A stretch of 43,820 bases of DNA from a virus, in the IMG/VR virus record IMGVR_UViG_3300030090_006763, positions 22,552-66,371 of that record; one strand, given 5' to 3'. The notes under the pieces were generated by a model. The model worked only from the letters and a program-made list of their open reading frames with translations, was not told the DNA's origin and did not search any database. Made by a program: the position numbers and the translations under genes. Positions 8,746 through 28,455 of this stretch are shown piece after piece; the stretch's first letter is position 1; every line of letters starts with the position of its first letter.

Positions 8746-9275
8746 ATACTTATACACTCAACATATCGACAAATGAACCTCTAGACAACGAGGTGGTTTT
8801 AGAAACCACTCACTTGTTTAGCGCTACAGAGGTATCTTTAGATATATCAAATGTATTTTCAGATATCTTTCCTAATTATATTAGTATTGATTGGGGTGAT
8901 AATTCTCCCATACTAGAGCCAGATCTTACAATATTTAGGGATTATAAAACACAATCTATTTTTCCGGAAATAGAAAAAGGAGCTGCTCCTGTATTTTTAA
9001 CAAACACCTATAAGCATATTTACTACCCTTCAAGTTATGCTTTAAAGAAACGAATGACTTTTAAAATTAACATTGGTTACGTTACAGGTGAAACCACTCA
9101 ACTCAGTGCACCTATAGTAGTAAACTCTGAGGGATATTATCAGAGTATTGAAGATGTTGAGATAGTTGGTCTAGATTTAATTAATGATGCTAATAATGTA
9201 ACACGTGTTTCGCTTTTAACTCAAAAAAACGAATATATAGTTCAATTAGATAACAAATCTTATAAAGAAAAGTGA
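8742..9275 (+). CDS. Small PKD-like virion protein
   Basis: 177 residues. ISIDWGDNSP (47-56) and NTYKHIYYP (88-96) are the paired motifs of a PKD-like Ig fold, as in the larger protein at 3649, though more diverged and with an insertion between them. The C-terminus is a short beta region (ITQKN-like strands, VQLDNKSYKEK). ATGA overlap with the preceding 969-residue protein suggests coupled translation and possibly a shared complex. No enzyme motif. Probably a structural decoration or assembly unit of the baseplate or fibres; confidence in the fold is moderate and in the role low. Confidence 0.65.
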   Translation: MNTYTLNISTNEPLDNEVVLETTHLFSATEVSLDISNVFSDIFPNYISIDWGDNSPILEPDLTIFRDYKTQSIFPEIEKGAAPVFLTNTYKHIYYPSSYALKKRMTFKINIGYVTGETTQLSAPIVVNSEGYYQSIEDVEIVGLDLINDANNVTRVSLLTQKNEYIVQLDNKSYKEK

Positions 9276-9276
9276 G

Positions 9277-9284
9277 TATAAATA
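9277..9284 (+). promoter_or_regulatory. Late-type promoter motif TATAAATA (exact T4 core)
   Basis: Exact T4 late core, ending 6 bases before the ATG at 9291. Confidence 0.6.
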
Positions 9285-9290
9285 TATAAA

Positions 9291-11651
9291 ATGGGTTGTT
9301 TAGTAAAATCAAGTCTAAGTGCTTTAAGTTCAGTTGAGGCGACTATATGTCCAACTGATCTTACTTTAGATCAGTTCTCACAAACTTTTAATGGAGGATA
9401 TGTGTTAAATTTTGTAAGTGCTCTTTCTGGAATACAAGATTTTAAAAATTTAAATTTTACTAATTTTTATCTCACACCTAATGTACTTTTAGATAATATT
9501 ACTACGCATACTGAAATAAATGTAAAACCGGATACGTATTTTACTACTTTAAACTTTACAACATCATCAGATAATTTTTTACTTTTTAAACCAGCAGATA
9601 TTACCTCTTTTCAATCTGACAATAACATTTATAATGCAGAATATTATGGATCAACTACCTTTACAGAAATACTATCAGATGCAAGCAATTTTGAGATAGC
9701 CTTTGTTGATGATTTTACTTGTAGGGTTAGTACTATTAGCTCTAGTAACAATATTAGATACTATTTAATAGTAACAGATGATGAAGAAGTTAACAATAGA
9801 CGTGATACTTTATTTGTTGCAGAAAATCAACTACCGTTAGAATCCTTTAATCTTGAATATAATTTGCTTAAGTACGAAAGCAATAGTTACATAAATTTAT
9901 ATTCAACAAAATCAAATAAAAAATATGTTTTAACAAATATAGACGGACATGTATTTGCAGATAAAATTGACACGTCAACAAAATCTAATCAATTTTATAT
10001 TGCTGATACTAGCATAAAAATTAATCAAGAATTAAATTTAACTATTCCTTCACCTTATAACGCATCATTTATCACTTATGATAATAGTGGTAAAATAAAA
10101 AACAGCGCTAGTGATTTTAATTTACCTTCTAATTATCTATTCTATAGTTCAAGCAATTCAGTAAATCTTGATTTTAATTTTTATAATTTAAAAAATATTG
10201 TAAATACGCAGGAAAGTTTTACATCATCAAATAATTTACTATCAACTTCTGAAACTACTATATTTGCACAGAATTTAAGAACATACACTTCAATATTTTC
10301 CGATATAGATAGTGAAAAGAATGAGACATTAGCATTAAATTTTGTTTATAATAACTTAGATATAGTAATAGAACCCGGAACAACATTCTTTACTACTCCT
10401 TCATCTATGACGCCTTTTAATAAGCTTAATATTAATGATACTAAGTTTACTAAATGCGGTTCTTTCTCTTATACGAGACCAGACTTATCTGATAGAGTAT
10501 ATAGGCTAGATGACGATTCTATATTTGATGAAAATGTAACATATTTATGTACATGGTTATCAGGTGGTATAGGTCAAGAAGGTGTTTGGGTAGATAGATA
10601 CTACTATCCTGATTTAGTTAGTAAAGAAGCGGCATTAGCTTCTTCCCCTGCTTACAACACCACATACGCTCAAGCGGTAGAAAATCTTATAACAACTAAC
10701 TCTGCTTTAAAAGACTCTGTTGAGAAGAAGTTGTATTTTGATAAGAAGAGTGACTTAGTATTTGAGCCTAAGAAACGATATAAGTATGTAAGAATATCAG
10801 AAGATGACTTTATAAGAAAATCCCCTACAAATTATTGCGATACAGCACAACTAAACGGTAAAGTAAACAATTACTATACTACTATAAATAAAAATGGTGG
10901 TTTTGGTTTAGGTTTTACTGTACAAAATGATTCTGGAGATTTTGAAATAAGATCAGGAAGTAACGATATCGAGGGGGGTCTGAGCTTTACAGTTATAGAT
11001 AATGAAGTTTCTTTTCAGTTTACCTTATTTGATAATAGTACCACTGGAAATACTATTCAAGAAAGATTACTGTTGAATACTTTCAAATATAAATTTAAAA
11101 TAGATCAATTTGAGAAAAACAATATATTTTTATCCTTTAATGCTATACAAGGAGTATGTAATTTATATTTAAACTCTAATGTAGTATACACGTTTAGTGT
11201 AGGAGCTTATCAACTTTTTACTAAGAGAATATTATTTGGAGATATTTTTGTAACATCTTTACAAGAAGATGGAGATACAACTCCAATAGAAATATTATAT
11301 AATGAAGCTTCTAAACAAGACTTTATTAGTAATCTATATCTTACTCTAGAACCTTTAGAAAAATTTGAAGAGTTAGCAGTTGTGTTTAGTGCTAATATTG
11401 ATAGTATACAAGATCTTGTTATCTCTCTTCCTTGCGGACAACGAAATCTAACTGATACATTTACAACTGTTAACTCTATTAACACTAACTTAAAGAATAA
11501 GAGTAATGTAGTTGATATTAATGTTAAAAATTTAAATATTAAAGATACTAGTATTACAGATAGTCTTCGTGAAATACTTAAAACTAATATAGCTGATTCT
11601 CTACCTAAGTCGACAGTTATTAATAACATAAACATTATAAATTACAAATGA
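9291..11651 (+). CDS. Large virion protein, 786 aa, unknown
   Basis: Not recognised. The protein is almost entirely beta-like, rich in Asn, Thr, Ser, Phe and Tyr, with few charged helices. Around residues 520-660 the pattern GGFGLGFTVQN... FEIRSG... GLSFTVIDNEVSFQFTLFD, then IFLSFNAIQGVCNLYLN, recalls a concanavalin/LamG-type jelly roll that could bind glycans; this is a pattern-based inference. The C-terminal 100 residues turn helical and hydrophilic (NINTNLKNKSNVVDINVKNL), perhaps a trimerisation or attachment segment. ATGA overlap with the next gene. Likely a baseplate-proximal or fibre protein. Confidence 0.65.
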   Translation: MGCLVKSSLSALSSVEATICPTDLTLDQFSQTFNGGYVLNFVSALSGIQDFKNLNFTNFYLTPNVLLDNITTHTEINVKPDTYFTTLNFTTSSDNFLLFKPADITSFQSDNNIYNAEYYGSTTFTEILSDASNFEIAFVDDFTCRVSTISSSNNIRYYLIVTDDEEVNNRRDTLFVAENQLPLESFNLEYNLLKYESNSYINLYSTKSNKKYVLTNIDGHVFADKIDTSTKSNQFYIADTSIKINQELNLTIPSPYNASFITYDNSGKIKNSASDFNLPSNYLFYSSSNSVNLDFNFYNLKNIVNTQESFTSSNNLLSTSETTIFAQNLRTYTSIFSDIDSEKNETLALNFVYNNLDIVIEPGTTFFTTPSSMTPFNKLNINDTKFTKCGSFSYTRPDLSDRVYRLDDDSIFDENVTYLCTWLSGGIGQEGVWVDRYYYPDLVSKEAALASSPAYNTTYAQAVENLITTNSALKDSVEKKLYFDKKSDLVFEPKKRYKYVRISEDDFIRKSPTNYCDTAQLNGKVNNYYTTINKNGGFGLGFTVQNDSGDFEIRSGSNDIEGGLSFTVIDNEVSFQFTLFDNSTTGNTIQERLLLNTFKYKFKIDQFEKNNIFLSFNAIQGVCNLYLNSNVVYTFSVGAYQLFTKRILFGDIFVTSLQEDGDTTPIEILYNEASKQDFISNLYLTLEPLEKFEELAVVFSANIDSIQDLVISLPCGQRNLTDTFTTVNSINTNLKNKSNVVDINVKNLNIKDTSITDSLREILKTNIADSLPKSTVINNINIINYK

Positions 11652-20653: not shown

Positions 20654-21517
20654 ATGGCCTTTCCTACAGATATAAGATTACCCGCGGGTTCAAGATACTA
20701 TACTATAATTGCAGATAAAAAATCATTTAATTCTAATTATGATATAGCTTGGTCTTTCGAATATAAATTACCTAGCTGGGGCATAGATGCACCATTTACT
20801 ACTTACGAAGTAGGTTTTGCTACCTTTTTAACTAATTTAGCATACCCTTTATGCAGTTTACCTGGTCAGTACATTGGTGACCAAGATCCTGAATATATAT
20901 TGTCAGCTCATGCCCTATATACTCAAGAACCAGAAGTAATGAAAACAGAAAGTGATTCAACTTTACTGTTAGAAGGTGGTATTTTGAGTGGAATGTTGGT
21001 AAAAATAGCTTTTGATACTACCGGGCTTTACGCGCTTACAGGAAGAGATGATAGACCTGGTGTTAACGATAAGCAAACACACCGGAATGCTCTAGTCGTA
21101 AGAGATTATGAACATAACCTAAAAGGTAATGCTCCATTGTCTACCTTTTCTAACACATTCAATACTTTATCTACTAATACATATAGAACATTAAGATTCA
21201 GATATGTAAATTTAGGTGAAAAATTACATATTGATTATAGAGAAGCAGATACTACAACTTATACATTATTAACTACTATTAATTTAGGTTATAGAGAGGC
21301 GCGTTTATCTAATTTAGAAAATGTATATTGCGGCTTTGCTTTCAGCACACCAATATCTGCAGCTACTGATGGTTTAAGCGCAAGACAATTTTTATTGAGA
21401 AATTTTAATATTGAAGGATTTGAGGGAAGCACTGTAGATACAGAAACAGTAGTAACACCAAGTCTTTCAGTTAACCCTAATACTTCTTACACAACTGTTA
21501 CTAATATAACAGCATAA
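20654..21517 (+). CDS. Lectin-like beta-sandwich virion protein, 287 aa
   Basis: The pattern of alternating strands suggests a concanavalin/LamG-like jelly roll: NYDIAWSFEYKLP, YEVGFATFLTN, MLVKIAFDTTGLYAL, YRTLRFRYVNLGEKLHIDYR, YTLLTTINLGYRE, YCGFAFSTPI, FLLRNFNIEGFEG. This is fold inference from pattern, not a recognised family. The last 30 residues are Thr/Ser/Val-rich and resemble the linkers of the next protein. The gene ends 1 base before the giant Thr-rich protein begins, so the two are likely partners, for example a glycan-binding module mounted on the same fibre. Confidence 0.68.
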   Translation: MAFPTDIRLPAGSRYYTIIADKKSFNSNYDIAWSFEYKLPSWGIDAPFTTYEVGFATFLTNLAYPLCSLPGQYIGDQDPEYILSAHALYTQEPEVMKTESDSTLLLEGGILSGMLVKIAFDTTGLYALTGRDDRPGVNDKQTHRNALVVRDYEHNLKGNAPLSTFSNTFNTLSTNTYRTLRFRYVNLGEKLHIDYREADTTTYTLLTTINLGYREARLSNLENVYCGFAFSTPISAATDGLSARQFLLRNFNIEGFEGSTVDTETVVTPSLSVNPNTSYTTVTNITA

Positions 21518-21518
21518 A

Positions 21519-24500
21519 ATGTCAACTACTCCTACACCTTCACAGACTACACCAAGCGGAGTGATTCCCACCACTGTGCCGCCTACTACTACTCCGGCTC
21601 CAGTAGTGCCTTTTAACGACACGCAGGTTACTAATATAAATTTTACATCAACATCACCTATCGCCGGAACTGGGGGTAAAGAAGGTTCTTATGAAAATAC
21701 TAGCGGTGAAATATTTGTTGAAAACGTAGTTTTAGATAAACCTTACCCTGATCCTTTAACTTATATAGTTTATGATAGTAATGGTAAAAAGGATGAGTAT
21801 GGTGATCCTGTAAATTTTGTAAGTGGAGAAACAGCTGCAACAATAAACGAGGATGGTACATCTATTGTTCAAATAAATCGAAAAATATCTGCTGTTGCTG
21901 ACCCGACTAATAGTTCAGGTAATATGCGGATGGTTGTTCAGCTTAGAGATCCAAATTTTACTACTAAGACTACCGGTGAATCAGTATTAAATACAGTACC
22001 AGCTATTTCACAGCCTACCACTACAACTACTACAACCACCACTTCTATATCGCCTACAGTACCTCCTTCTATTCCTCGTGAAGGGGATAGAATGACACAA
22101 GAAACAGAAAGCGCAATAACAGACTTATTTCGTGAAACTGTTTCTAAGCCAATTACCAAGCAAACAGAAACTATAGTTTCAAATCTTTCAGAACTTGCAG
22201 TTAAAATTGTAGAAACTCCTACAGCAGAAGAAAAGCCTAAATTTAATGAAGAGCAGCTAGCTTTTATAGCAAGAGTTAACCAAGGAGTTGCTAATACAGC
22301 TGTTCTTCCAGGAGTAGTAAGCCCTGAACCGGCTATAGCTCCGGTAAGGGAAGGCGAGCAATTATCGGAAGAATCACAAAGTCTAATATCTGATCTTTTT
22401 CGTGAAGTTATAGCTGGGTCAGTAGATAATGATACAGAAAAACTGGTACAAAATGTAGTAGAGAACGCAATTAAAAATACTACTACTTCTACCACTTCAA
22501 CCACAACTTCTACCACTACAGTTATTCCTAGGCCAGGTGATGATGACCTAGGAGATGAAGGAGATACTAATTTTATACCTTCAGTAGTTAATAACACTCC
22601 AACTATTGCTGTAAATGATATTAAAGTTAATAACTCAGTTACTGAAGATAATGTAGATATAACTGTAGAAATTAGTAACGCTGATCATTGGAATTTTAGT
22701 ATTGACGGTGGATCTACAGTGCGAGTTAACGCTTATGATTTAGATCACCAGCTTTGCGAAAATCAATCAGATCCACATCCAGTTGAATACATTAACGAGA
22801 GCCCTTCGCAGCTTTTAAAGGAACTTACCGAGTATTTCGATAACCAAGAGAATCCACAACCTGAATCACCGAATTCAGGTCTACCATTTGATATGTTAGA
22901 CCCGGTTGCTTTTTGGGATTGGTTTTATTCCATTTATGAAGACATTAAGCGTCGGCTTGCTGAGCGCGATGAATTTATAGAGGGCATTGGTGTTGATGAT
23001 CAGGAAAGAGTTGAAGGTTTAGATGAGCCAGATTTATGGGATGAAGCTCTCGATGAAATAGATGAAGCATTAGAGGATGCTTCAGCAGATGACCGACAGG
23101 TTGCCGAAGAACGGAGTAATGAATGGGCGGAAAGTATAGGCCGGGTGACGGAAAGTATCCTTGAGGCGGGAAAGAGGCTTCAAAGTGGCGGCCTTACAGA
23201 AGAAAGAGCTGCAGAAAGGGTAAAACAATTTGAAGATTTTGTTGAATCCGCGGAAGGTATTAATATTGGTAAGGGTTTATTTGGTCGAGATGTTAATCGG
23301 AGGACCCCTTGGCTTAACCGCCGGCGTTTAGCTCGAAACCCGGAAGTGCTTAAGGAGGCTAACGAATTAGTGAGGGATTTATTAGAGGACACGACGCTTA
23401 TTGATGAGCTAGACTTACAAGCAGGGGTGGATCAGTTGGCTGAGCAACTCGAATTCGAAGCCGTGGATGAAAGGCTACAGGAGTTTGGAGCTGATGAAGA
23501 CACAGCTCGTAGATGGAAACAATTTGACGAGGAAGACTTTGAGGCCTATGATAAATTTAAAGAACAGCACGATAAAAGAAAAGCTGACGCAAGAAGATTA
23601 TTAGACAGGCTTAGAGATGGTACAATAACGCCGGAAGAATTATCAAAATTAAGAGGACATATTCCTGGTAAGTCTCCGGCTTTGGATGAGTATATACGTA
23701 GAAAAGGTTGGATTAATGATTCTGATCTAAAAGATCTGATCGATGGGCCCTCTTATAACGAACCTGTTACATCTGCTTCTATATGTAGTCATGACGCGCC
23801 TTGTGATAGTCCTTCGCGAACAGTCACCTTAACTGTAGTGCCTGGCGAGCATAATGTTTTAGTAACCGCGGTTAATTCTAATAATCAACCGGTTGCAACA
23901 GCATCTAGTAAGTTTGCTGTTGATGAAACAACTAATGAAGTATCGTCTCAGGGTCAATTGGTAGCTGCTTTACAAAAATTTTCTACTGTTAAAATTGTAG
24001 GTAATTTTGATGTTACACAAACTATTCAAGTTCCTTCTGATGCAAGAATAATAGGTGTTAACAACCCTGTAATAAGAACTAATACTACTGCTTTTTCTGT
24101 AAAGGAAAGTAATGTTGAATTAGCTGGATTTACAATTACAAAGCTCGGTAGCACCCCAACAGGGGTGGGCGTGCTTGTTGATAGACCTAAACGAAGCTCA
24201 ACAACTGCACCTTCTAATATTAACATCCATGATATAGTATTTTTAGAAGTTGGTACACCTGGCCTAGCTGGTTATTCTCCTATAGTAGTAAAAGGTTATA
24301 ATAAATTATTACCGGATCCTGATTCAGACTCTAAAATAGCAACTTTAAATAAAGGTTCTGATCCTATAAAAAATATTAAAATAGAGTTTAACAGATTTGT
24401 AAATATCCCTAATAATGCTATAGATGTATCAGTTGTTAATAGGATAGATGTAGCTGATAATAATATTTTTAATACAAATAGTTCTGCTAGGTCTTTAGGA

Positions 24501-27500
24501 AATGGTATTATTTTTAATAATGTAACTGATGGTAGTGTATATCAAAACTCATTAAACACAGTAGGTAGATCCGGAGTAGTAATATCGGGTAAGCAGTCTT
24601 CGTCTATTGATGTTACTAATAATATTATTAATAACTTCGGAATTAATAAAGGCGACGGGTTTAATGCTGGTGTTGAAATAACTGGTTCTTCAGGTGTCAA
24701 AGTATCCGGAAATACTATAACAGGTGGTAGTAATATATGGAACAGTGGTATATCATCGAATAAGGGTTCCTCTAATTTATCAATAACTGATAATAATGTC
24801 GATAAAGTAAGAGATGGAATTCTTCTCACAGATAATAGTAACACCTTTAATGTAAGAGATAATAAGTTAACTAATATTAATCGTTATGGTATACAGACCT
24901 ATCAAACGTGGTCGGGAGCTGTTAATAATAACAAAATAACACAATCACCTACAGCTGTAGAGTCTTTTAACGCTCTTTCAAAATTACAACAAAGAACTTT
25001 AGGACTAGGAAGTGGTGTTTTAGTGGGTGAAAGTAATGGTATACAGGTCGTAAGTAATAAAATAGAAGGTGTGTATGAAGAAAAAAATGGTGATTCTGCA
25101 GTTCTTATCTCAGGTATCTACCCTATTCAGGATACATCAAAAACATCAGTTCAAATTGCTATAGGTGAAAAAGAAAGTGATGTCTATGGTGATAATAAAG
25201 TAACAGATTCTTCACCGCAAAATATAGTCGCAGGAAATACTCATTTAGGTCCAGGTAAGTTATTTTCAACCAATAAGGGCAATGTAATATTAGTTACTGA
25301 AGTAACTGAAAATGAAAATATTAACGTTCCAAGTATTGCTACTTCTACCACACCTGTATTACCAACATCTACTACACCTGAACCTTATTTAGGTGGCATA
25401 ACAACCACTACAACTACTACAACTACTGATTATCCAGGTAAAGTTACTGTTATAGCATCACCAAATACAAAACAAACTCAAGAGAGTTTAAGAACGGAAT
25501 TTGATACCTTTGTTACTGAAAATAAAGAGTTAGTTAGTAATAACAACGTAGTAATTATAACTCCTAATAAACTAGATTCATCAAAAGGTTCGATTACAAC
25601 AAGTGATGATAGTACAAAATATAAAGGTGATACTGATACCACGTTTGATACTGATCCAGTTGTACCTGGTAATACTACAACTACAACTTCTACAACCCCA
25701 CCGCCCTTCACAATAGATCGAATAGATCTACGTACACAGGAAGAAATCGCTAGAGATAATTATATAGCAGCTAGTTTAGAAGCTAATGATGCATTTCAGA
25801 TTATAATATCTGAGATAGAAGCTGGTTTGATAGATTTTGAGGAAGCTGCTTCAAGATCAGCATTAGTTCAAAGCGAGTTTGATGTAGACGCTAAAAAAGA
25901 AATATATGAAAATGTAAGATATACAGAGGCTTTATGGAAGCGAGATTTATCTACATGGTTATCCACGCGTAATGCTTCGCCTTGTACAAAAGAAAGGTAT
26001 AAAACATTTGTCAATTTAATGCCTCAAGATTGGTCTAATCAAGATTTATATTGGGCAAATGACACCATCATAGATATTTCCGGAATCACCAAGCCTGGTC
26101 CCCATTATGATCCGGATATTGGGTTTAAGGATAATTTAAAATCTGTAGAATCAGGCGGCGTGGGTGTTAGAAAGGCCGCAGTACTAATTTCTCCTTCTCA
26201 TGTATTAATGGCAGATCATTGGAAATACACCGAAGGTCAGACCTTAACGTGGGTAGCTAACGACGGTGAAGAAATTTCAAGAAAAATAGTTAGTAAGGGT
26301 ATTAAAGTACCTGGTGCTGACACCCGGGTACTGGGACTTGACGAGCCTGTGCCTGATAAATTAAAAATATACCCTTTACCTTCACCTAAGTCTTCCGATA
26401 CTTATAATGATTTACTAAATGGTTCTTTAGTGTTTATCGGTAATCAACAACGTAAATTTATTACTGGTTATATATTAAGACAAGAACCTTCTTATACTTA
26501 CGATCCAATTTTAAATGTAGGGTTAGATCAATCTTTCCCATCTATTAGGAATAGAAACATATCTTTAAAATTTCAATCAGCCATTCCATTTTTAAATCAA
26601 CAAATTCCTACTTCTTTTACTAATTTTCAACCTGATGAAAGACCTTCTTCCATAGCAGCTGAAGGGCCTGAACTAAATCGGGTTGTAAAAGGAGATAGTG
26701 GTTCGCCTAGTTTTATTTTATCGCCTGATGGAGATATAATTTTAATATCACAACACCAGTTCGGAGGAGGAACACCGAAAGGTCCGTTTTTTGGAAGTAG
26801 TACCACGTTTAATTTCATACAAGAATATATGAATGAAATAAGTGATAGGGAAAACTTACCACGTTATACTCTTCGTTCAATTGACCCTTGTACTGGTGAA
26901 AAAATAGGATATCCAGGTGATACCGGTACTCCAGGTACTACAGATCCCCCAGGTACTACAACTACAACAACTACTTCAACTAGTACTTCAACTAGTACTA
27001 CAGTACCCCCAACAGGGCCCCCTACTACTAGTACAACAACGCCAAGATTAGGGTGGACAACTACTACATCAACATCTACTGGTTACCCTACAATATTTAC
27101 TAATCCTCCTATTATTGATACTCCACGTGTATTCGATCCTCCAAATCGTATATGGACCCCACCCCCGTGGATAACTACCCCGCCTCCAGAAGAACCATAT
27201 ATACCAGCTCTTTGTCGAACTCCACCTGAAGATCCTCCTGGAGAGGAAGATCCTCCTGAAGAGGAAGATACAGGAGGCTATACTGAGCCTTCAGATACAA
27301 ATTTTGTAGCTAGAGTTGATAGTTCTGATGATGTTAGTATTAGGGTAAATGTTAATCAAGAATCTAATGAACCAATAATAAAAATATTTCCTGCCCCAGT
27401 AAGTAGTTTGCAAGAACCCTTTAATCCGGAATTCGACTTTAATACCAACGTTACTAAAAGAACACCCACTCCATACAACTTTACAACTCCGGATGATGAA

Positions 27501-27602
27501 GATGGTATTAGGGAACCGGTAGTAGAGCAAGTTAGAAGTGAAGGAGAGGATGAAGATATATGCCCTCCTGATCAAGAAAATTGCAATACCTTACAATTTT
27601 AG
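21519..27602 (+). CDS. Giant multidomain surface/tail protein with beta-helix and trypsin-like protease
   Basis: 2027 residues. Order: T/P-rich start (1-32); Ig-like region (33-160); Thr linker; two copies of a 44-residue helical repeat (187-230, 277-320); Thr linker; an Ig-like domain (about 350-800) split by a charged helical insert (about 415-745); right-handed parallel beta-helix (about 810-1250); Thr linkers; helical segment (1405-1490); chymotrypsin-fold protease (about 1490-1800) with His1567 (LMADHW), Asp1601 (GADTRVLGLDEPV) and Ser1727 (KGDSGSPSF); T/P-rich acidic tail ending ICPPDQENCNTLQF. No signal peptide. Position at the end of the fibre block suggests a virion fibre or decoration. 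The protease might mature fibres or attack host surface proteins. The multidomain plan is clear; the function is inferred. Confidence 0.8.
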   Translation: MSTTPTPSQTTPSGVIPTTVPPTTTPAPVVPFNDTQVTNINFTSTSPIAGTGGKEGSYENTSGEIFVENVVLDKPYPDPLTYIVYDSNGKKDEYGDPVNFVSGETAATINEDGTSIVQINRKISAVADPTNSSGNMRMVVQLRDPNFTTKTTGESVLNTVPAISQPTTTTTTTTTSISPTVPPSIPREGDRMTQETESAITDLFRETVSKPITKQTETIVSNLSELAVKIVETPTAEEKPKFNEEQLAFIARVNQGVANTAVLPGVVSPEPAIAPVREGEQLSEESQSLISDLFREVIAGSVDNDTEKLVQNVVENAIKNTTTSTTSTTTSTTTVIPRPGDDDLGDEGDTNFIPSVVNNTPTIAVNDIKVNNSVTEDNVDITVEISNADHWNFSIDGGSTVRVNAYDLDHQLCENQSDPHPVEYINESPSQLLKELTEYFDNQENPQPESPNSGLPFDMLDPVAFWDWFYSIYEDIKRRLAERDEFIEGIGVDDQERVEGLDEPDLWDEALDEIDEALEDASADDRQVAEERSNEWAESIGRVTESILEAGKRLQSGGLTEERAAERVKQFEDFVESAEGINIGKGLFGRDVNRRTPWLNRRRLARNPEVLKEANELVRDLLEDTTLIDELDLQAGVDQLAEQLEFEAVDERLQEFGADEDTARRWKQFDEEDFEAYDKFKEQHDKRKADARRLLDRLRDGTITPEELSKLRGHIPGKSPALDEYIRRKGWINDSDLKDLIDGPSYNEPVTSASICSHDAPCDSPSRTVTLTVVPGEHNVLVTAVNSNNQPVATASSKFAVDETTNEVSSQGQLVAALQKFSTVKIVGNFDVTQTIQVPSDARIIGVNNPVIRTNTTAFSVKESNVELAGFTITKLGSTPTGVGVLVDRPKRSSTTAPSNINIHDIVFLEVGTPGLAGYSPIVVKGYNKLLPDPDSDSKIATLNKGSDPIKNIKIEFNRFVNIPNNAIDVSVVNRIDVADNNIFNTNSSARSLGNGIIFNNVTDGSVYQNSLNTVGRSGVVISGKQSSSIDVTNNIINNFGINKGDGFNAGVEITGSSGVKVSGNTITGGSNIWNSGISSNKGSSNLSITDNNVDKVRDGILLTDNSNTFNVRDNKLTNINRYGIQTYQTWSGAVNNNKITQSPTAVESFNALSKLQQRTLGLGSGVLVGESNGIQVVSNKIEGVYEEKNGDSAVLISGIYPIQDTSKTSVQIAIGEKESDVYGDNKVTDSSPQNIVAGNTHLGPGKLFSTNKGNVILVTEVTENENINVPSIATSTTPVLPTSTTPEPYLGGITTTTTTTTTDYPGKVTVIASPNTKQTQESLRTEFDTFVTENKELVSNNNVVIITPNKLDSSKGSITTSDDSTKYKGDTDTTFDTDPVVPGNTTTTTSTTPPPFTIDRIDLRTQEEIARDNYIAASLEANDAFQIIISEIEAGLIDFEEAASRSALVQSEFDVDAKKEIYENVRYTEALWKRDLSTWLSTRNASPCTKERYKTFVNLMPQDWSNQDLYWANDTIIDISGITKPGPHYDPDIGFKDNLKSVESGGVGVRKAAVLISPSHVLMADHWKYTEGQTLTWVANDGEEISRKIVSKGIKVPGADTRVLGLDEPVPDKLKIYPLPSPKSSDTYNDLLNGSLVFIGNQQRKFITGYILRQEPSYTYDPILNVGLDQSFPSIRNRNISLKFQSAIPFLNQQIPTSFTNFQPDERPSSIAAEGPELNRVVKGDSGSPSFILSPDGDIILISQHQFGGGTPKGPFFGSSTTFNFIQEYMNEISDRENLPRYTLRSIDPCTGEKIGYPGDTGTPGTTDPPGTTTTTTTSTSTSTSTTVPPTGPPTTSTTTPRLGWTTTTSTSTGYPTIFTNPPIIDTPRVFDPPNRIWTPPPWITTPPPEEPYIPALCRTPPEDPPGEEDPPEEEDTGGYTEPSDTNFVARVDSSDDVSIRVNVNQESNEPIIKIFPAPVSSLQEPFNPEFDFNTNVTKRTPTPYNFTTPDDEDGIREPVVEQVRSEGEDEDICPPDQENCNTLQF
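22014..22058 (+). repeat. Threonine linker 1 (ACN codon repeat)
   Basis: Nine consecutive Thr codons, with several ACN synonyms used, followed by Ser/Pro. It joins the first Ig-like region to the helical repeats. Confidence 0.75.
22077..22475 (+). repeat. Two-copy 44-residue protein repeat
   Basis: Copy 1 (about 22077-22208) starts REGDRMTQETESAITDLFRE; copy 2 (about 22347-22478) starts REGEQLSEESQSLISDLFRE. Both then continue with a Glu/Asn helix and precede a Thr-rich or Pro-rich stretch. The shared pattern is REG-x5-E-S-x2-I-x-DLFRE. Confidence 0.75.
22479..22520 (+). repeat. Threonine/serine linker 2
   Basis: TTTSTTSTTTSTTT encoded by ACN/TCN codons after the second helical repeat. Confidence 0.7.
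22752..23760 (+). other. Composition-shifted helical insert within an Ig-like domain
   Basis: About 335 residues of charged, helical sequence (RVEGLDEPDLWDEALDEIDE, ERAAERVKQFEDFVESAE, NRRRLARNP) lie between two halves of one Ig-like domain (ISNADHWNFSIDGG before, PSRTVTLTVVPGEHNVLVTA after). Local GC reaches 52-55% (23101-23160 and 23281-23340), against about one third outside. It also uses Trp, Arg and Glu more than the flanks. Confidence 0.65.
25341..25427 (+). repeat. Threonine/proline linker 3
   Basis: Two Thr/Pro clusters, the second with nine Thr in a row (25401-25427), between the beta-helix and the next small domain. Confidence 0.7.
25674..25697 (+). repeat. Threonine linker 4
   Basis: TTTTTSTT before a Pro cluster, ahead of the helical segment that leads into the protease. 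Confidence 0.65.
25987..26880 (+). other. Trypsin-like serine protease domain
   Basis: Residues about 1490-1788 of the giant protein. His is in the SHVLMADHW motif (codon 26217-26219; S1 consensus TAAHC), Asp in GADTRVLGLDEPV (codon 26319-26321; consensus DIALL.L..PV), Ser in GDSGSP (codon 26697-26699; consensus GDSGGP). Order and spacing fit the chymotrypsin fold (S1/S1B-like). Confidence 0.75.
26954..27085 (+). repeat. Threonine/serine/proline linker 5
   Basis: The longest low-complexity linker (TTTTTTT, then STSTSTSTT, VPPTGPPTTSTTTP, TTTTSTSTG), placed after the protease domain. Mucin-like composition. Confidence 0.72.
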
Positions 27603-27615
27603 TAATTATTAGTAA

Positions 27616-28455
27616 GTGAAAAAACTTACTATAGGTACTTGTGTGTATGATGATTATGATGGTTTATATTTCACACTGCAATCTATAAGATTAAATAATC
27701 CGGAAATTCTTGATAGGTTAGAGTTTGTTATTATTAATAATAACCCCGGGTCTGCACAAGGAAGAGAAATACCTAAATTATTAGAACAAATAAACACACC
27801 TGTAACTTACTTAGAGTTCTCTAAATATAACTCTCCATTTTTAAAAGGTAAGATATTTGATTTAGCTGAAACTGAATATGTATTAGTATTAGATTCTCAT
27901 GTTTTAATAGAACCTGGTGCTTTAAAGCGTTTATTACACTATTATGATTCAGAAAAAGATGGTGGTAATTTATTACAAGGCCCACTTCTATATGATGATT
28001 TGCAAAATATTAGTACTCATTTTGATCTATCAAAATGGGGTACAGATATGTGGGGTGTATGGTCAACAGATAAAAGAGGAATGTACAAAGACAACGAACC
28101 TTTTGAAATACCAGCACAAGGTATGGGGTTATTTTCTTGTCGCAAAGATTCTTGGCTTGGATTTAACAAAAATTTTAGAGGATTTGGCGGTGAAGAGGGT
28201 TATATACATTGCAAGTATAGAAATGCAGGTAAAAAAACTCTCTGTTTACCGTTTTTAAGATGGTTACATAGATTTAACCGACCAGATGGTCCTAAATATA
28301 TTCCTACTTTAGAAGACAGGTTTCGAAACTACATGATAGGCTTTTCCGAAATTGGTAAAGATATTAATGAAATAATAAATAGATTCGAAGATAGAATTCC
28401 TCTTAATTATATTAATAAAGTTAAGAAGGAATTAGTTAGTCTAGGTTACCCATAG
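27616..28455 (+). CDS. GT-A glycosyltransferase, GT2/GT27-like
   Basis: 279 residues, with a GTG start 13 bases after the preceding stop. N-terminal nucleotide-sugar fold: TIGTCVYDDYDGLYFTLQSI (5-24) and LEFVIINNNPGS (35-46). Metal site VLVLDSHVLIEPG (89-101) has DSH rather than DxD, as in polypeptide GalNAc-transferases. GLFSCRKDSWLGF and FRGFGGEEGYIHCKYRNAG (187-205) match the acceptor-loop region of GT2/GT27 enzymes, and WLHRF (216-220) offers a third metal ligand. It probably transfers a sugar from a UDP-sugar in the host cytoplasm. The adjacent Thr-rich giant protein is an obvious candidate acceptor; cell-surface or other glycans are alternatives. Confidence 0.82.
   Translation: MKKLTIGTCVYDDYDGLYFTLQSIRLNNPEILDRLEFVIINNNPGSAQGREIPKLLEQINTPVTYLEFSKYNSPFLKGKIFDLAETEYVLVLDSHVLIEPGALKRLLHYYDSEKDGGNLLQGPLLYDDLQNISTHFDLSKWGTDMWGVWSTDKRGMYKDNEPFEIPAQGMGLFSCRKDSWLGFNKNFRGFGGEEGYIHCKYRNAGKKTLCLPFLRWLHRFNRPDGPKYIPTLEDRFRNYMIGFSEIGKDINEIINRFEDRIPLNYINKVKKELVSLGYP

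Follow-up and report, generated by a model that had tools for sequence, protein, structure and literature searches.

In Streptococcus mutans, the gene of the GT-A transferase PgfS lies directly downstream of the gene of the adhesin Cnm and is co-transcribed with it, and PgfS is needed for the modification of Cnm, a protein with a threonine-rich region (PMC5856776). Protease resistance has been shown for the PgfS-modified proteins Cnm and WapA (PMC5856776). Among phages, glycosylated capsid and tail-tube subunits are described for mycobacteriophages, as far as the available summary of that work goes (Freeman et al. 2023, as summarised in PMC12619734). The polypeptide GalNAc-transferases of family GT27 (GALNT) are a third point of reference and are found in animals and apicomplexans; the animal enzymes initiate the sugar chains of mucins. 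Here, a phage gene pair is described that consists of a giant protein with mucin-like segments and a small GT-A enzyme encoded directly after it. The pair is likely to act as a cassette for mucin-type O-glycosylation in a distant and uncultured lineage of T4-like phages. The motifs, the predicted fold, the conservation of the pair, the co-occurrence and the accessory genes come from computation, and the activity, the choice of acceptor, the presence in the virion and the benefit are inferred.

Genomic setting and the Thr-rich giant protein

The window, i.e. the whole stretch of 43,820 nucleotides that was analysed, is part of a 66.4-kb virus contig from IMG/VR. Upstream of the gene pair, a baseplate-wedge homologue and two Mtd_N/Collar fibre-like proteins are encoded, and on its other side a gp61-type primase, a gp32-type single-strand binding protein, a DnaB-like helicase and a UvsX-like recombinase. 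Since these neighbours are T4-like and the primase is at most 28 % identical to those of cultured T4-like phages among the matches listed, the lineage is regarded as T4-like, distant and uncultured. The tail location of the giant protein is derived from synteny with the upstream baseplate-wedge and fibre-like genes, and its presence in the virion is inferred. The 287-aa tail-region protein has a Thr/Ser-rich C-terminal tail (VDTETVVTPSLSVNPNTSYTTVTNITA), which is conserved in several lineages and makes it a possible alternative acceptor.

Table 1. Coordinates of the gene pair, its conserved neighbour and their features within the window
Feature	Position	Strand	Basis or remark
287-aa tail-region protein, conserved neighbour	20654..21517	+	adjoins enzyme in some giant-less lineages
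2027-aa tail-region protein with mucin-like segments, proposed glycosylation acceptor	21519..27602	+	ORF; same position as upstream partners elsewhere
Thr/Ser/Pro-rich N-terminal stretch, aa 2-26	21522..21596	+	
Mucin-like segment 1, aa 140-203, contains PTTTTTTTTTS	21936..22127	+	
Thr/Ser run TTTSTTSTTTSTTT, aa 321-334	22479..22520	+	
Right-handed beta-helix region, aa 983-1185	24465..25073	+	Pfam Beta_helix E=4.6e-8; NosD under its cutoff
Mucin-like segment 2, aa 1263-1315, nine Thr in succession	25305..25463	+	
Mucin-like segment 3, aa 1354-1399	25578..25715	+	
Trypsin-like serine protease region, between Thr-rich segments	26136..26738	+	motif only
Mucin-like segment 4, aa 1784-1871	26868..27131	+	
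C-terminal motif CNTLQF of giant protein	27582..27599	+	
279-aa GT-A glycosyltransferase, GalNAc-transferase-like predicted fold, proposed initiating O-glycosyltransferase	27616..28455	+	Pfam, alignment, model
DSH, residues 93-95 (D93, H95), DxH motif	27892..27900	+	
GFGGEE, residues 189-194	28180..28197	+	in register with GGE loop of GALNT7
WLHRF, residues 216-220; H218 candidate third metal ligand	28261..28275	+	no metal modelled

The original prediction described a 2027-residue protein with Thr/Ser/Pro linkers of up to nine Thr in a row and, 13 bases behind it, a GT-A enzyme with the motifs DSH and GFGGEE. Recomputation of the ORFs, the runs and the motif positions reproduced this description, and the enzyme ORF has a GTG start located 13 bp after the end of the giant protein. 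Runs of Thr, Ser and Pro are present at the N-terminus of the giant protein and at residues 166-176, 321-334, 1295-1303, 1386-1396 and 1813-1854. The longest Thr run comprises nine residues, whereas the longest runs in shuffled sequences of the same composition (n = 2000) averaged 3.2 residues and did not exceed six. The giant protein thus meets the criterion for mucin-like proteins of having segments dominated by Thr, Ser and Pro beyond chance, which relies on the shuffle test and does not demonstrate dense O-glycosylation. Within the runs, the Thr codons are mixed (ACT 37, ACA 22, ACC 8, ACG 1). This pattern suggests that selection acts on the amino acid, and slippage of codons is disfavoured as the source of the runs.

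The protease region was assigned by its motifs, HVLMADHW at about residues 1561-1568 and GDSGSP at residues 1725-1730, and a Pfam search returned no match for it. Glycans could possibly shield the giant protein from this region of its own, which is untested and depends on a protease recognized by motif only. A related protease-like region, with HDSSSP, was seen in the giant protein of another phage locus (L003). PHROGs and NCBIfam provided no family for the giant protein or the enzyme, and no homologue of the giant protein was found among the 50,697 phage records searched.

A glycosyltransferase with a GalNAc-transferase-like predicted fold

In an alignment of 95 phage and bacterial homologues with 36-80 % identity to the window enzyme, the residues D93, H95, G189, F190, G191, E193, E194, W216, H218 and F220 are invariant. 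Pfam places the enzyme in Glycos_transf_2 (PF00535) only, with 26.8 bits versus a gathering cutoff of 23.3. The AlphaFold (AF2) model has a mean pLDDT of 95.2 and a pTM of 0.92. When it was compared with the PDB using Foldseek, ranks 1 to 49 were all occupied by polypeptide GalNAc-transferases with E-values down to 1.4e-13. The first other match, COLGALT1 at rank 50, had a query-normalised TM-score of 0.50 versus up to 0.75 for the GalNAc-transferases, and its E-value was only about 500-fold weaker. The ranking lacks a same-method control, since the model of an accessory GT2 reached a pLDDT of only 42. The enzyme had originally been likened to GT27, to be compared by structure with GT27 and GT2, and its predicted fold is indeed nearest to the polypeptide GalNAc-transferases and not to GT2 enzymes with polysaccharide or lipid acceptors.

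At the sequence level, the GLF, GGE and His motifs of GALNT7 are matched in register by a profile built from the C-terminal half, but the E-value of this alignment, 0.49, is not significant. When the sequence of the window enzyme was used on its own as a query against the PDB, nothing relevant was returned. Pfam detected no ricin-type lectin domain in the 279-aa enzyme, and no hydrophobic N-terminal anchor was seen. For lack of a lectin domain and of significant sequence similarity, the enzyme was not filed in GT27. Judging from the model, it probably works like a polypeptide GalNAc-transferase, with the activity and the donor sugar being inferred and not shown. None of the NCBIfam models, including that of PgfS, matched the phage enzyme. 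A tblastn search with three enzymes against the 50,697 phage records found no homologue and hence no cultured phage with the enzyme. Among viral models, a protein from an uncultured Caudovirales phage gave the best match; it has 30 % identity and is named merely as a GT-A-type protein.

The N-terminal half of the profile has weak matches to GT2-type transferases of wall and capsule polymers. Together with the Pfam assignment, this could suggest that the enzyme modifies a host surface glycan such as lipopolysaccharide, teichoic acid or capsule, for example against superinfection. The Thr linkers would then be unmodified spacers, and the linkage of the two genes would be inherited synteny. However, the nearest solved folds are those of GalNAc-transferases with peptide acceptors. 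Another possible target is the phage DNA, since the phage is T4-like and DNA glycosylation is common in the T4-like group. However, the DNA glucosyltransferases of T4 are GT-B enzymes, whereas the enzyme described here is of the GT-A type and nearest to GalNAc-transferases, and its bacterial homologues are encoded in ordinary chromosomes. DNA glycosylation was rejected on the basis of the fold, and hardly any chance is left for it.

Linkage of the enzyme to mucin-like proteins

A third and broadest scan of viral contigs yielded 353 relatives, of which 80 were kept, and more enzymes were obtained from primase-anchored scans. Counts of the pair are based on 80 distinct enzymes with readable upstream sequence. 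The linkage of the two genes, which had been proposed as a check, is kept in most relatives: in 66 of the 80 distinct phage loci, the upstream neighbour is mucin-like and/or ends in C[NK]xLx[FYW]. It is mucin-like in 64 loci by a loose measure or better and in 56 by a strict one, and ends in the motif in 63. A marginal loose match in a 287-aa-type protein (L017) was left out of the mucin-like count. Two loci scored as mucin-negative (L161, L180) have, by eye, Ser/Thr-rich partners that end in the motif and are below the strict threshold. The spacing between enzyme and partner is usually 10-22 bp. Motif-bearing partners vary in length between about 100 and 2058 aa, and small freshwater ones (e.g. 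135 aa in L062 and 140 aa in L084) contain little besides Thr, Ser, Pro and the C-terminal motif.

Of 2905 distinct ORFs in the loci, 79 are mucin-like, 76 have the C-terminal motif and 60 have both. The first kilobase upstream of the enzyme contains 58 mucin-like residues per kb, compared to 0-12 in every other bin. Across the family, the mucin-like segments are composed of 45 % T, 16 % P and 11 % S. The motif C[NK]xLx[FYW] is retained in partners that otherwise share little and may be a tail for virion docking or for recognition by the enzyme. Repeats of the type GCxxPxAxNFxPxAxxDDGSC were observed between the Thr-rich linkers of two upstream giant proteins (L002, L007).

GT6 and GT31 are families whose animal members lengthen mucin-type and blood-group glycans. 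Of 77 distinct phage loci, 14 have a further gene on the same strand within 80 nt after the enzyme, and the two genes often overlap by 4 bp. These genes encode GT6 enzymes (L034 and L039, E ~5e-22), a GT31-type galactosyltransferase (L007, E = 4e-10), GT2 enzymes (L031, with L002 and L046 just or well under the Pfam cutoff), GT2 enzymes with sugar-binding and methyltransferase domains (L019, L020) and a weakly polysialyltransferase-like protein (L013). The window itself has no accessory gene of this sort after the enzyme.

A genome scan identified 53 bacterial relatives with 34-54 % identity in Proteobacteria, Desulfobulbaceae, Actinobacteria, Bacteroidetes and others, and in the enzyme tree the phage enzymes form one group apart from them. 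The linkage also exists in roughly half of the bacterial homologues. A strict Thr-rich segment is present within 4 kb of the enzyme in 24 of 50 homologues, most densely 1-2.5 kb upstream. When 297 genomes of a single order were drawn separately, eight had the enzyme, and in four of these it had a Thr-rich, apparently secreted neighbour. Several bacterial neighbours are small proteins with long Thr tails and matches to TAT-signal models. Many bacterial homologues are proteins of about 600 aa in which the enzyme domain is C-terminal and the N-terminus resembles HprK-related kinase A or PqqD.

Such fusions were observed in loci including L089, L098 and L087, and an NTP_transf_5 gene adjoins the enzyme in L098. 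The fusion loci represent an uncharacterised system near small TAT-type Thr-rich proteins. In another locus (L081), the protein directly upstream of the enzyme (8917-9999) is radical-SAM-like by eye (CNAGCWYC) and not mucin-like, and mucin-like ORFs are located a few kb to either side.

The overall synteny is common to related phages, which fits the possibility of a host-glycan enzyme next to unmodified linkers. As a control for shared ancestry, loci were fetched by their gp61 primase, ignoring the enzyme, and were counted if the sequence continued for 6 kb or more past the primase. Both the enzyme and a mucin-like protein were present in 36 of these loci, the enzyme only in 7, a mucin-like protein only in 7 and neither in 34. 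After clustering at 98, 90, 80 and 70 % primase identity, the Fisher p-values were 7e-8, 1e-5, 3e-4 and 0.001, respectively. A test on the primase tree provided only five independent contrasts, of which a mean of 2.5-3.3 agree and 0.2 oppose, and was not significant. Therefore, the association is strong in counts and not proven to be independent of ancestry. Nevertheless, the co-occurrence of enzyme and mucin-like proteins goes beyond synteny, if weakly after phylogenetic correction, and the same link is found in bacteria without phage synteny. For these reasons, a modification of host surface glycans is considered very unlikely.

The pairing is not obligatory. Three lineages have an enzyme with an intact DxH motif and no mucin-like neighbour. 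In the first (L009, L017, L018, L048 and L049), the enzyme follows a 287-aa-type tail protein, in the second (L010 to L016) it is located behind replication genes on the other strand, and the third comprises L026, L303 and L310. In five records without a partner, no mucin-like ORF was found in up to 105 kb of contig sequence, with the contigs being incomplete. One locus (L025) has two strongly Thr-rich genes slightly further upstream instead, and two others (L253, L276) encode a giant protein with the C-terminal motif and no adjoining enzyme. For the exceptional lineages, two explanations remain: the enzyme acts on a different target, or its partner has moved to a place outside the sequence covered. 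Three loci with a primase near the L026 type (L237, L241, L308) have long PT/V repeats in a tail-region protein and lack an enzyme of the family.

Alternatively, another tail protein, e.g. the 287-aa neighbour, could be the usual or ancestral target, and the mucin-like proteins could be secondary or lineage-specific. In the mucin-less lineages, the enzyme is still intact and is encoded in several cases 30 bp behind a 287-aa-type protein, the C-terminal tail of this protein type (VDTETVVTPSLSVNPNTSYTTVTNITA in the window) is conserved in several lineages, and the enzymes without a partner require about six changes on the enzyme tree. However, the immediate upstream partner in most loci is the mucin-like gene and not the 287-aa gene, the enzyme of the L010 group is encoded on the other strand behind replication genes, and the bacterial homologues are found near Thr-rich proteins. 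Another tail protein as the main target thus seems unlikely.

Proposed mechanism and comparison with known systems

Based on the fold and the gene linkage, the computational evidence supports the original prediction that the phage may O-glycosylate its own linkers, with the activity and a glycosylated virion not shown. These phages probably coat one of their own proteins with sugars, for which there is no experiment. In the proposed glycosylation cassette, the enzyme would be synthesised directly after its acceptor and would be a soluble GT-A transferase that depends on a metal and lacks a lectin domain. Within infected cells, it would transfer one sugar from a nucleotide-sugar donor to Thr, and also Ser, in the Thr/Ser/Pro segments of the upstream protein. 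In some relatives, this sugar may be lengthened or varied by the GT6, GT31, GT2 and methyltransferase proteins encoded next. The predicted outcome is a tail-associated protein with stiff, bristle-like and protease-resistant glycosylated linkers. Candidate benefits are protease resistance, a stiff spacing of binding domains or binding of something by the glycan. For a wider prokaryotic mucin-type O-glycosylation, in which a GalNAc-transferase-like family serves dedicated Thr-rich secreted or tail substrates and phages add swappable GT6/GT31 elongation genes, the chances are considered even.

If the proposed cassette is real, the phages of a large, uncultured T4-like lineage produce a mucin-like glycoprotein of their own, which may serve in adhesion, host recognition or resistance to proteases. 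The cassette would also offer a testable explanation for the long Thr runs in tail proteins of environmental phages. Furthermore, the enzyme would be a small, soluble protein O-glycosyltransferase without a lectin domain that has a natural Thr-rich substrate. It could be used to produce mucin-type glycoproteins in laboratory bacteria and would bear on the origin of the GalNAc-transferase fold.

The original statement that no phage system of this type has been described needs to be qualified, since mycobacteriophages glycosylate capsid and tail-tube subunits, as far as the summarised source indicates. For the pair of a GalNAc-transferase-like enzyme and a mucin-like protein, no report was found in the open-access literature searched. 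Phage virion glycosylation is already known, as is an adhesin-adjacent GT-A enzyme acting on a Thr-rich region in S. mutans. The combination of a GalNAc-transferase-like enzyme with mucin-like partners dedicated to it, in phages as well as in bacteria, appears to be new.

The proposed cassette would share glycans on virion subunits with the mycobacteriophages, in which, according to the summary, the targets are the C-termini of capsid and tail-tube subunits instead. Cyanophage P-SSM2 has a blood-group-type GT6 transferase that is homologous to the gene after the enzyme in L034 and only 24 % identical to it. The N-terminal domain of bacterial homologues is similar to HprK-related kinase A (TIGR04352), but scores only 82-101 bits versus a family cutoff of 200 and is absent from the phage enzymes. 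In the PgfS/Cnm system, a GT-A gene likewise directly follows the gene of a protein with a Thr-rich region. However, PgfS is membrane-bound, works with PgfM1, PgfE and PgfM2 and is not from a phage, and its NCBIfam model matches a bacterial homologue of the enzyme only with an E-value of 0.07. In contrast to the GT27 enzymes, the phage enzyme is prokaryotic, has neither lectin domain nor anchor, shows no significant sequence similarity to them and uses an unknown donor. Nevertheless, theirs is the closest fold, the DxH motif, the GGE loop and the downstream His occur in the same order, and the proposed acceptor is Thr/Ser/Pro-rich as well. The prokaryotic enzyme family may be a counterpart, or a relative, of animal GT27.
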